This document shows positions 5,965-8,971 of a stretch of 64,000 nucleotides of DNA, in pieces. The translations under genes and the position numbers were made by a program. Numbering within the stretch: the first letter of the stretch is position 1; every line of letters begins with the position of its first letter. Source of the DNA: Frateuria soli (GTDB taxonomy: Bacteria > Pseudomonadota > Gammaproteobacteria > Xanthomonadales > Rhodanobacteraceae); contig NZ_CP088252.1 of NCBI RefSeq assembly GCF_021117385.1, positions 2,170,001 to 2,234,000 on the forward strand, given 5' to 3'. The notes beneath the pieces are model-generated. The model made no database searches, had not been told where the DNA came from, and was given only the letters and a program-made list of their open reading frames with translations.

Positions 5965-7740
5965 TCAGGCCGGGGCCACGGCACTGGCCACTTCGATATC
6001 GCCCATGACGCAGTTGCGACCCGCGCGCTTGGCGCGATAGAGCGCCGCGTCGGCCTCCCTGCAAAGCCGCTGCACGCCGTAGCCGGACGTTGCGGTCGAG
6101 GCCAGGCCCACGCTGGCCGACACCATGATGTCGCAGCCATCCTTGATGACAGTCGATTCGACGATCGCCGCCCGGATGCGGTTGGCGATGTCCATGCCCT
6201 GCTCGCGCGAACACTCGTACAGCAGGATGCCGAATTCCTCCCCGCCCAGCCGGCCGAACAGATCGGTCGGGCGCAACTGCTGCTGGCAGGCCGCGACGGT
6301 GCGCTTGAGCACCGTGTCGCCCATGGCATGGCCATGGGTGTCATTGACAAGCTTGAAGTGGTCCAGGTCCAGCACGATCAGGCAGGCATGGCCGACCTTC
6401 TTGTCCAGCTGGTGCAGCGCGTGCTCCGCCCTGCAGATGAAGTGCTGGTGGTTGAGGATGCCGGTGAGGCCGTCCAGTCGCGAAAGCCTCTTGAAGCGCA
6501 GCTGGGATCGCTTCAGGCGGAACATCCAGAACACGATGGAAGCGATCACCACCAGCAACAGGATGTTGTAGAGCCGGCTGGTTTCGACCGCCTTGGTGTC
6601 CAGCGCCTGCTGCAGGCGGAGGATCTTGTTCTGCTTGCTCAGCCGTTCCGTTTCCATCTTCTGGGCCAGCATGTGCTGTTGCGCGGCCTGGTAGGCCAGA
6701 ACCCGCGCCCTGACATCGTCCAGATATCCCTTGTCTTCCGCTGAATAGCGCTCGAAGTACGAAAGCGCGGCAGCCGTATTCCCCGTCTTCTTTTCAACCA
6801 GGTAGAGAACTTCATAGGCCTCTGCCAGCCACTCGTCGACGGTTCCCGGTTCGACCATCGCGACCGCGGCCAGCGCGGCCTTCCGTGCCTCGTCGTAACG
6901 CCCCAGCTTCTCGTAAGCCTGTGCCCGCTCAACCTGCGCCGACAGGATGTGCGGGTAATAGGCGTTGGTGCGAATCCCCGGACCTATCTTGACGAGCAGG
7001 GCGAGCGCCCTGGCCGGCTGGTTCTCGTCCAGATAGAGGCTGCCAAGGACAAGGCGCATGGCGTTGCTGAAGACCGGCTGCCCCGCTTCATCGCATGTAT
7101 CGATCGCCTGCTTGAGCTTTTCGCTGGCCGAGGTCAGCCGTTTGCCGTTGTAGAGCGCGGCGACCTCCCGGGAGAGCGGACGGCAAAGGCTTTCCCCGGG
7201 TGGCAAAGCCTGCTCGGCCATGTGCGCGTATTGCACCGCCAGCTCGATCTGGCCCGCCAGGTTGAGCATCTGCGACAGGTCCGCCAGGAACAGGAATCGG
7301 GCCTGGGGGTCCTTGATGCGCGGCAGCTCCGCGGTCAGGCGGTTGGCCAGGCCGAAAGCCTCCTCATAGCGCCGGTTCAGCCAGAGGTTGCTCAGCAGCA
7401 GGCCGGAGGCCTTGGCCACAAGGACCTCGTTGCCCGAGCGCTCGGCGATCTCGCGCAGCCTGGCTTCCGACTTGGCGTAATCCCCCTGGAACATGGTTTC
7501 CCAGGCATCCAGATACCGTAGCTGCCATTGCTCCTCGGGAGTCAGCCTTGGTGCTTCGCGATGGATCCGGGCGAGCATCTCCACGAAACGGGGATGGTCG
7601 CTGGTGCGCAGCTTCTCGGCCTGCTCAAGGAACCGTTCGGCGTCCGTGACCGGTACGCCATCGGGACCCGCGTATGCCAGCGCGCACCAGGCCATGCCCG
7701 CTACTGCGGCACAGGCTCGGATACGGTTCGAGCGGAACAT
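5965..7740 (-). CDS. Membrane diguanylate cyclase with periplasmic TPR sensor region
   Basis: Makes cyclic di-GMP from two GTP. A signal peptide (MFRSNRIRACAAVAG ... AYA) is followed by about 360 residues of TPR-like helical repeats, a coiled coil (ETERLSKQNKILRLQQ), one transmembrane helix at about 391-408, and a cytoplasmic GGDEF domain. The active-site motif is GGEEF at 499-503. RPTD at 490-493, five residues upstream, is a complete RxxD inhibitory site, so product inhibition is expected. The architecture fits a sensor reading the periplasm. It lies 18 bp downstream of the borosin-precursor-like gene on the same strand, so read-through is possible. Confidence 0.92.
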   Translation of the reverse strand: MFRSNRIRACAAVAGMAWCALAYAGPDGVPVTDAERFLEQAEKLRTSDHPRFVEMLARIHREAPRLTPEEQWQLRYLDAWETMFQGDYAKSEARLREIAERSGNEVLVAKASGLLLSNLWLNRRYEEAFGLANRLTAELPRIKDPQARFLFLADLSQMLNLAGQIELAVQYAHMAEQALPPGESLCRPLSREVAALYNGKRLTSASEKLKQAIDTCDEAGQPVFSNAMRLVLGSLYLDENQPARALALLVKIGPGIRTNAYYPHILSAQVERAQAYEKLGRYDEARKAALAAVAMVEPGTVDEWLAEAYEVLYLVEKKTGNTAAALSYFERYSAEDKGYLDDVRARVLAYQAAQQHMLAQKMETERLSKQNKILRLQQALDTKAVETSRLYNILLLVVIASIVFWMFRLKRSQLRFKRLSRLDGLTGILNHQHFICRAEHALHQLDKKVGHACLIVLDLDHFKLVNDTHGHAMGDTVLKRTVAACQQQLRPTDLFGRLGGEEFGILLYECSREQGMDIANRIRAAIVESTVIKDGCDIMVSASVGLASTATSGYGVQRLCREADAALYRAKRAGRNCVMGDIEVASAVAPA

Positions 7741-7758: not shown

Positions 7759-8028
7759 CTACTTGCTGTCGGGAGCCGGAATATCGAGCGGCTCCTCTTC
7801 CAGCGGCTCCTCTTCATGGGCAGGCATCTGGGTGATCTGCGGCGCCTGGAACGGCTGCGGCTGGCCCAGTGCCGCCGAGAGCATCGAGCTGTCGCCCGCA
7901 GCCACCGCAGCCTTCAAGGCCTCGGGAGCCTTCGCCTGTTCCAGAACGCGAGCCAACTCCTCCGCCGATGCATGGCGCAGAGACGAGTCGCATCCGATCG
8001 TTTCCAGCAAATCGATGGTGTCGGTCAT
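7759..8028 (-). CDS. Putative split-borosin precursor peptide
   Basis: An 89-aa protein next to a borosin-type methyltransferase. Residues 1-55 are helical (LLETIGCDSSLRHASAEEL, then AAVAAGDSSMLSAALG at 40-55). This has the shape of the borosin-binding domain of precursors such as Shewanella SonA and the equivalent region of OphMA, both with a helical bundle and a GD-containing last helix. Residues 56-89 are unstructured, Pro/Glu-rich and contain a tandem EEEPL repeat; the methylated core should lie here (FQAPQITQMP or LDIPAPDSK). There is no signal peptide. GGGG lies six bases upstream of ATG 8028. The link is by neighbourhood and pattern; the exact core is unknown. Confidence 0.72.
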   Translation of the reverse strand: MTDTIDLLETIGCDSSLRHASAEELARVLEQAKAPEALKAAVAAGDSSMLSAALGQPQPFQAPQITQMPAHEEEPLEEEPLDIPAPDSK

Positions 8029-8128
8029 TCCAGGCCCCTGTGGTTACGCGTGTGTCGGTTAAATGGTGCGCCGCAAAGACGCGGGCGGTAGCGGTGGGAT
8101 GGTCCCAACGGAGCCGCTGCCGGCGATA

Positions 8129-8971
8129 TTATGCTGTTGTCGGAATACTCGCCGCCGCTTTCTCGCGCTCGTCCAGTTCGGCCAGCCGCGCCTGCATGGC
8201 CAGGTTGGGTTTCAAGGGCAAGGCCGGCGGCAAGACCAGGGTTTCTTCCGCCGTCATCGGGGTCAGGGCAAGATCGGCCAGGGCGACGCGCCGGACCCGC
8301 GGCATTTCGATCGGCAGGGTCGGCGCGCGGTAAATGATCACCTGGTGATCGGACGGGTAGTCGTTCAGCAACAAATCGACCAGCAACTGCCGGTATGCGG
8401 CGCCCGTGGCCAGACGCCCGAGCGAGCGATCGCCGACCAGTGCGACCTGCCAGAGCACGAGGTACCCGCTGGGGTCGATCCGCCGCTCGTAGAACAGCAG
8501 CTGGCTCGCCTCGAAATGCTGGCAACCGAAACGGCCCGGATCAATGCCCAGGTCCGCATAGAGGCAGTCCTCGGCCGAGATACCCGGCTCCATGAACGCG
8601 TCGAATCCCTCCGCGCGCGCCACCTCGATGGCCTTGTGCGGCGACCAGGCAAAGATGCCCGGATGCCCGTAGAAAACCCCGCACACGCGCTTGCCGGCGC
8701 GCACCTGGGCCATCATCAGTTCGACCCACTCGCGATAGGTCTTCAGGCGCGACTTGCCTTCCCGGTAATACGACTGGAGGCTGCGCACGTCCGGATGCAT
8801 GCGCTCCAGCCATTTCTCGACGATGCCGTCGGATAGTCCCGCGAACACCACGTCCGCCTGTTCGATGTGGCTGCGCGCCAGCGGCGTGAGGTGCGAGCCC
8901 AGCGTCATGCCCATGCCTACGCAGGCCAGGCTGCCGCGTCTTTTGTGAGCTGCCGCAGGGAATGTGTCCAT
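8129..8971 (-). CDS. Borosin-type peptide backbone N-methyltransferase (tetrapyrrole methylase fold)
   Basis: A 280-aa SAM-dependent enzyme that probably methylates backbone amides of the peptide encoded 100 bp downstream. Residues 13-22 (GSLACVGMGM) form the tetrapyrrole-methylase SAM loop. YYREGKSRLKTY (68-79), GVFYGHPG (98-105) and PGISAEDCLYADLGIDP closely match OphMA, the omphalotin methyltransferase. Tyr69, Arg75, Tyr79 and Tyr101 align with its catalytic Tyr66, Arg72, Tyr76 and Tyr98. Corrin or haem-pathway methylases of this fold lack that YY..GKSR..TY block. Unlike OphMA there is no fused core, so this is a split system. The start at ATG 8971 is tentative because no strong ribosome site precedes it; ATG 9025 is an alternative. 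Confidence 0.85.
   Translation of the reverse strand: MDTFPAAAHKRRGSLACVGMGMTLGSHLTPLARSHIEQADVVFAGLSDGIVEKWLERMHPDVRSLQSYYREGKSRLKTYREWVELMMAQVRAGKRVCGVFYGHPGIFAWSPHKAIEVARAEGFDAFMEPGISAEDCLYADLGIDPGRFGCQHFEASQLLFYERRIDPSGYLVLWQVALVGDRSLGRLATGAAYRQLLVDLLLNDYPSDHQVIIYRAPTLPIEMPRVRRVALADLALTPMTAEETLVLPPALPLKPNLAMQARLAELDEREKAAASIPTTA

Follow-up and report, generated by a model that had tools for sequence, protein, structure and literature searches.

A SonM-type split borosin locus of Frateuria soli is genomically linked to a predicted periplasmic-TPR diguanylate cyclase

The window analysed here, a stretch of 64,000 nucleotides from the genome of Frateuria soli (contig NZ_CP088252.1), contains a methyltransferase gene and, beside it, an open reading frame for an 89-residue protein, which the original prediction had taken together for a split borosin system, with a peptide and a separate enzyme that methylates its backbone. 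The locus raises the question of whether this assignment holds and, if so, what such a peptide might be for. Both genes are present on the minus strand where they had been placed (Table 1), with the methyltransferase beginning at an ATG at 8971 within an open frame that extends to 9052.

Table 1. Predicted features of the Frateuria soli borosin locus, in window coordinates.
Feature	Coordinates	Strand	Extent	Basis
SonM-type (type IV split borosin) peptide backbone alpha-N-methyltransferase, predicted	8129..8971	minus	280 aa	phmmer, PF00590, conserved residues
Likely borosin precursor peptide	7759..8028	minus	89 aa	83-member alignment, SonA profile matches, presence at methyltransferase loci
Predicted borosin binding domain (leader), five helices	7864..8028	minus	residues 1-55	AlphaFold2, Foldseek
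Proposed methylated core, APQITQMP	7822..7845	minus	residues 62-69	inferred
Acidic Pro/Glu tail, proposed follower	7762..7821	minus	residues 70-89	tandem EEEPL
Predicted periplasmic-TPR sensor diguanylate cyclase	5965..7740	minus	591 aa	GGDEF and TPR models, AlphaFold2
TPR-like helical solenoid, predicted periplasmic, with C186 and C216	6787..7641	minus	residues 34-318	AlphaFold2
Transmembrane segment	6514..6570	minus	residues 391-409	hydropathy
GGDEF domain, GGEEF signature and RxxD inhibitory site	6013..6477	minus	residues 422-576	Pfam

The top solved relative of the methyltransferase is SonM (phmmer E 5.5e-73), compared with about 1e-45 for the fused fungal borosin or OphMA-type chains and 0.0039 for the best tetrapyrrole methylase. 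The enzyme matches PF00590 at 7.8e-20, which was the profile check suggested with the original prediction, and tetrapyrrole methylase models score on it far below their own cut-offs. The four residues earlier picked out as a retained catalytic set, Y69, R75, Y79 and Y101, align with SonM Y58, R67, Y71 and Y93, and their equivalents are kept in 47, 47, 47 and 46, respectively, of the 47 rows of a diverse alignment; mutation of these SonM residues lowers activity, according to the available text of PMC8429565. In a methyltransferase tree, which has a midpoint root only and several long rows elsewhere, the sensor-linked rows and SonM form one 41-row group (97/80) that also includes L082 and L096. 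The enzyme thus groups with SonM rather than with CobA or CbiF, the clustering that had been named as contrary to a borosin assignment, and a tetrapyrrole methylase is ruled out by the phmmer E-values, the sub-cut-off model scores and the residue alignment and tree.

Searches of Pfam, NCBIfam and, with the single sequence, the PDB gave no significant match for the 89-residue protein, and no signal peptide is evident on inspection. The protein aligns as one family with the other precursors of an 83-member set, drawn from the best 80 of 385 loci (named records, mostly Dyella, Rhodanobacter, Luteibacter and Frateuria), and 76 of these 80 yielded a precursor alongside the methyltransferase; the family and its recurrence rule out a chance open reading frame. 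When the 83-precursor profile was compared with PDB sequences, the seven top matches were all SonA chains (E 0.026-0.085); as a control, the precursor of locus L147 matches SonA at 6.7e-26, and the window precursor alone matches no SonA chain. The AlphaFold2 model (mean pLDDT 65.6) has helices at residues 3-13, 15-18, 22-31, 36-44 and 47-53 followed by an unstructured tail, and Foldseek places SonA at ranks 1-5 (E 1.5-4.8, TM about 0.55 by target length). Profile, fold model and Foldseek, each weak alone, agree in ranking SonA, whose binding domain comprises five helices within residues 1-53 (PMC8429565, available text). The window leader has the same five-helix layout as SonA with only distantly similar sequence, in keeping with the SonA-like helical domain originally described. 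With methyltransferase and precursor on separate genes, a SonM/OphMA homologue that carries the catalytic Tyr/Arg set and is not a tetrapyrrole methylase, and a leader that corresponds to the borosin binding domain by individually weak top ranks, the pair has the features of a type IV split borosin. Its assignment as a SonM-type enzyme and precursor, for which methylation is predicted, is well supported by the SonM match, the precursor family and the SonA ranks, and the original reading of the two proteins is upheld to this extent.

The position of the core calls for a different reading. The Pro/Glu-rich tail with tandem EEEPL is present as described (residues 72-81), and it had been proposed as the core. 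Acidic residues occupy columns 72-74 in 69-78% of the aligned precursors, so that an acidic run is commoner across the family than the PQxxQ stretch (window residues 63, 64 and 67: P in 52%, Q in 53% and Q in 51%), which is absent from the second precursor of the window genome. Luteibacter sp. dw_328 (L078, 6489-9108) has a single methyltransferase and a single TPR-GGDEF gene flanking an array of seven tandem precursors with varying cores. Six of the seven stop 3-11 residues past PQxxQ without an acidic tail, which is found solely on the precursor adjoining the sensor. Because these six end so soon after PQxxQ, and because window residues 62-69 are about as distant from the leader as the SonA methylation sites L63 and I65 are from theirs (PMC8429565, available text), residues 62-69 are the candidate core. 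Since the same six precursors lack the tail, the acidic EEEPL segment is probably a follower, and we consider it unlikely to be the methylated core. A further arrangement is seen at L096 (6888-7438), with two neighbouring precursors beside the methyltransferase, tails that are Gly-rich rather than acidic, and no TPR sensor found in the 6 kb flank.

The original prediction described a two-gene system. The pair itself stands, but not its isolation, as a third gene begins 18 bases downstream of the precursor and encodes a sensor with a GGDEF domain (Pfam, 1.4e-37) and matches to TPR models, most of them under the Pfam cut-offs. The AlphaFold2 model (pLDDT 88.4) comprises helices at residues 5-22 and 34-318, a long helix at 322-421 and a GGDEF fold, and this 100-residue helix contains the membrane segment. 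Among 87 full-length homologues, GGEEF is found in 87, RxxD in 86, a membrane segment in the matching zone in 86 and, by a simple rule, a signal-like start in 72. Residues C186 and C216 are invariant in 46 of 46 rows, and in 16 of 16 rows spanning several families, which would fit a periplasmic disulfide. The GGDEF domain retains its active-site signature, and diguanylate cyclase activity is predicted on this basis. By sequence, no solved relative of the TPR part is significant, the best being RapF (E 0.2), and the 50 matches listed from a fold search of the sensor model are all GGDEF-type, none informing on the TPR part. Scans of the locus for RNA families and promoters found no RNA family and no promoter-like site.

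The association of the three genes is a regular one. Methyltransferase, precursor and TPR sensor are all found in 75 of the 80 named loci (best 80 of 385), a gene being counted wherever it lay on the plus strand of its locus. The five incomplete loci comprise two at a contig end (L098 and L101, the latter with a precursor detected by tblastn that the gene count missed), one with the sensor only (L080), one with two precursors and no sensor (L096) and one with neither (L082). A precursor lies no more than 700 bases upstream in 79 of the 89 TPR genes of the named loci (best 80 of 385). The window genome (G000; 3.49 Mb, one contig) contains 22 GGDEF matches in all; the TPR query matches two genes, both of which directly follow one of the genome's two borosin methyltransferases, and in the second system a separate 89-aa precursor lies between methyltransferase and sensor. 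None of the three cassette genes encodes an exporter or a leader peptidase. Shewasin A is said to cut a Shewanella borosin precursor; the pepsin-like peptidase model PF00026 has no match in the window genome, and its control likewise matched nowhere.

Gene content across genomes gives a similar picture. In the 147 genomes of the family, the sensor (E <= 1e-10) occurs in 91 of 94 with the methyltransferase and in 0 of 53 without it (Fisher 7e-37, kinship ignored), six genomes with weak methyltransferase matches (E 1e-6 to 4e-4) being left out of the 94; in genera such as g8 and g17, genomes without the enzyme are also without the sensor. Of the best 150 sensor places, down to E 5e-65, 124 have a methyltransferase within 8 kb, in every case on the same strand, and 118 of them are downstream of it; the other 26 lie farther away. 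Among the sensor places listed, at least 108 of 138 methyltransferases have a sensor within 8 kb; the 30 without a listed sensor include three fusions, and four that were inspected comprise three with sensor and precursor and one with the precursor only. Sixteen of the 26 distant sensors, chosen non-randomly, were also inspected; none has a listed methyltransferase within 8 kb, and 11 have their own precursor directly upstream. At the remaining five (L159, L160, L161, L169 and L170) no precursor was recognised among the small upstream ORFs.

Across 398 genomes of the phylum, the methyltransferase (E <= 1e-30) is found in 15 and the TPR domain (E <= 1e-8), by a profile that includes rows from five of the genomes counted, also in 15, with both in 12. 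Leaving aside the window's family, 9 genomes share the two, 3 have the sensor only (G691, a strong match at 7.5e-45, and G723 and G479, at about 1e-9; none with a methyltransferase match at 1e-5) and 3 the methyltransferase only (G440, and G431 and G778, in which a TPR hybrid kinase adjoins it). G745 was scored as having both through a weak match elsewhere, and has a TPR hybrid kinase at its borosin locus. In G691, the TPR-GGDEF gene (L179, 3363-6029) is found in a genome with no borosin methyltransferase detected, and has about 750 bases upstream a small ORF containing a double-glycine-leader-like stretch.

Beyond the family, 13 SonM-clade loci (L145-L157) from 11 genomes were examined, and in 10 of these a TPR-GGDEF gene (TPR profile E 3e-60 to 4e-9) stands beside the methyltransferase, in divergent orientation in L148 and upstream in L154. 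In the other three, L155-L157, a TPR hybrid histidine kinase takes the sensor's place. Searches found precursor-like small ORFs at the outside loci, except in L148, L150, L151 and L155, where inspection alone revealed them. The methyltransferases of L147, L152 and L153, which are 67-77% identical to SonM and found together with a TPR-GGDEF gene and a precursor resembling SonA, are taken, on this sequence evidence, to mark Shewanella-type loci. Three genomes of the family without a separate sensor (G097, G129 and G108) encode a single TPR-GGDEF-methyltransferase protein (analysed with Pfam in one of them), which on inspection begins with a signal-like stretch and is preceded by a SonA-like precursor. 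Among more distant borosin-type loci (L120-L123, L127 and L158), tblastn detected no such sensor in the flanks examined. Family genome G103 encodes, at L127 (7601-8853, reverse complement), a further, divergent methyltransferase of borosin type; a 108-aa ORF lies upstream of it, no TPR sensor was found in its vicinity, and it may represent another type of split borosin. The product of L158 (4466-7987), 1174 aa long, carries a borosin-like methyltransferase close to the N-terminus, and at 0.01 Pfam recognises nothing else in it.

These computations show the families to which enzyme and precursor belong, together with a coupling to the sensor that is both genomic and evolutionary, and the genomic link is strong. 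A three-gene unit that includes a predicted diguanylate cyclase speaks for signalling rather than a free-standing natural product, and we consider it probable that the locus is a peptide-signalling cassette feeding c-di-GMP. As we infer its steps, from the sites of methylation through cleavage, export and binding to the direction of control, the methyltransferase would bind the five-helix leader of the precursor and N-methylate backbone amides in a short core past the leader, whose most likely place is at or near residues 62-69. The precursor, or a methylated peptide freed from it, would then act with the periplasmic-TPR GGDEF protein encoded next, in which the membrane helix would join the periplasmic TPR sensor to the cytosolic GGDEF diguanylate cyclase. 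The matured peptide may be secreted into the periplasm or arrive there from other cells, and its binding to the TPR solenoid would alter c-di-GMP production. Several observations count against this model, namely the lack of an exporter, leader peptidase or signal peptide in the cassette, the five inspected sensors at which no precursor was recognised, the presence of PQxxQ in only about half of the precursors, the three sensor-only and three methyltransferase-only genomes of the phylum sample, and the absence of a significant solved TPR homologue.

Control could also run the opposite way, with the TPR domain detecting an external cue and methylation being switched through c-di-GMP or by direct contact, so that the peptide would be a secreted or intracellular effector rather than the sensor's ligand. 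The conserved gene order and the natural fusions in three genomes agree with this; the fusions presumably set methyltransferase and GGDEF on the same, cytosolic side, an arrangement that also fits a sensor controlling the methyltransferase. We nevertheless regard it as unlikely, as a precursor is kept by 11 of the 16 inspected sensors with no listed methyltransferase nearby, and as the precursor diverges more in step with the TPR domain than with the enzyme. At 60 single-triad loci, the partial correlation of precursor and TPR distances is 0.56 (p 0.0005) with the methyltransferase held, compared with 0.21 (p 0.007) for precursor and methyltransferase with TPR held. A TPR domain that is longer and evolves faster could simply keep better time and so inflate the partial correlation; co-divergence is used here as supporting evidence only. 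Set against the GGDEF domain in the same way, the precursor follows TPR (0.57, GGDEF held) and not GGDEF (0.08, p 0.14, TPR held). This difference bears on a further proposal, in which the precursor, methylated or not, is an intracellular adaptor on the cytosolic part of the cyclase and methylation a regulatory switch with no peptide released. Such an adaptor would explain why none of the three genes brings a signal peptide, exporter or peptidase, and would suit fusions that place the methyltransferase beside GGDEF, but it is TPR, not GGDEF, that remains as the common part when the output is a histidine kinase, and we consider this quite unlikely.

Most doubtful, and in our judgement very unlikely, is that the locus is an ordinary split-borosin natural-product pair whose sensor is merely co-inherited and whose peptide has an unrelated role. 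Heterologous co-expression of SonM and SonA is enough for methylation (PMC8429565, available text), and the six more distant borosin-type loci show no such sensor in their examined flanks. Set against this are the recurrence of the sensor coupling across several families, the parallel absence of enzyme and sensor within genera, the existence of fusions and TPR hybrid kinases, and the lack of comparable conservation among seven other flanking window proteins, one of which is matched in 18 of the 80 loci and the rest in 0-2 (6 kb flanks; best 80 of 385). The TPR sensor is the regular company of the borosin pair, and many precursor-sensor pairs stand without an adjoining methyltransferase; both points favour a pair of ligand and receptor, or a regulator pair, that the methyltransferase matures. 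Extended to SonM-type split borosins at large, this becomes a tentative proposal, with a little less than an even chance of being correct, that these systems would serve mainly peptide signalling rather than supply toxins or antibiotics. Each precursor would be recognised as ligand by its own periplasmic TPR receptor (a diguanylate cyclase, or in some lineages a hybrid kinase), and one methyltransferase could mature several such pairs in trans.

Compared with SonM-SonA of Shewanella oneidensis, which has a homologous enzyme with the same active-site residues and a separate precursor with a five-helix leader, the window system differs in its proposed core, where PQxxQ precedes an acidic tail, and in the presence of two systems in one genome. 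The fused fungal borosins OphMA, dbOphMA and MroMA belong to the same methyltransferase family, but the window core is separate from the enzyme; we know of no signalling partner for the fungal proteins. TPR-type peptide receptors of Gram-positive bacteria, the Rap/RRNPP family, are likewise paired with a small peptide gene. The likeness to the window locus is one of genetic pairing, as the RapF match (E 0.2) is not significant, and the window TPR domain is predicted to be periplasmic and joined to GGDEF, with a peptide predicted to be backbone-methylated. Genetic pairing and co-divergence together suggest that the TPR domain may be a peptide receptor here as well.

Enzyme and precursor belong, as new members, to an already known type, and any novelty would lie in the sensor link, subject to the scope of the literature covered. 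The main text of PMC8429565 makes no mention of GGDEF, tetratricopeptide, cyclase or histidine kinase, and the available text of PMC11285071 none of GGDEF. No description of a borosin-diguanylate cyclase link was found in the literature searched, the main split-borosin surveys lying outside that search, so an earlier mention is possible. The conserved sensor partner, the fusions and the precursor-sensor pairs without an adjoining methyltransferase give borosins a concrete, testable function. The pairing with a second-messenger sensor suggests that borosin peptides take part in cell signalling, and, if the proposal is true, a backbone-methylated peptide would be tied to c-di-GMP signalling.
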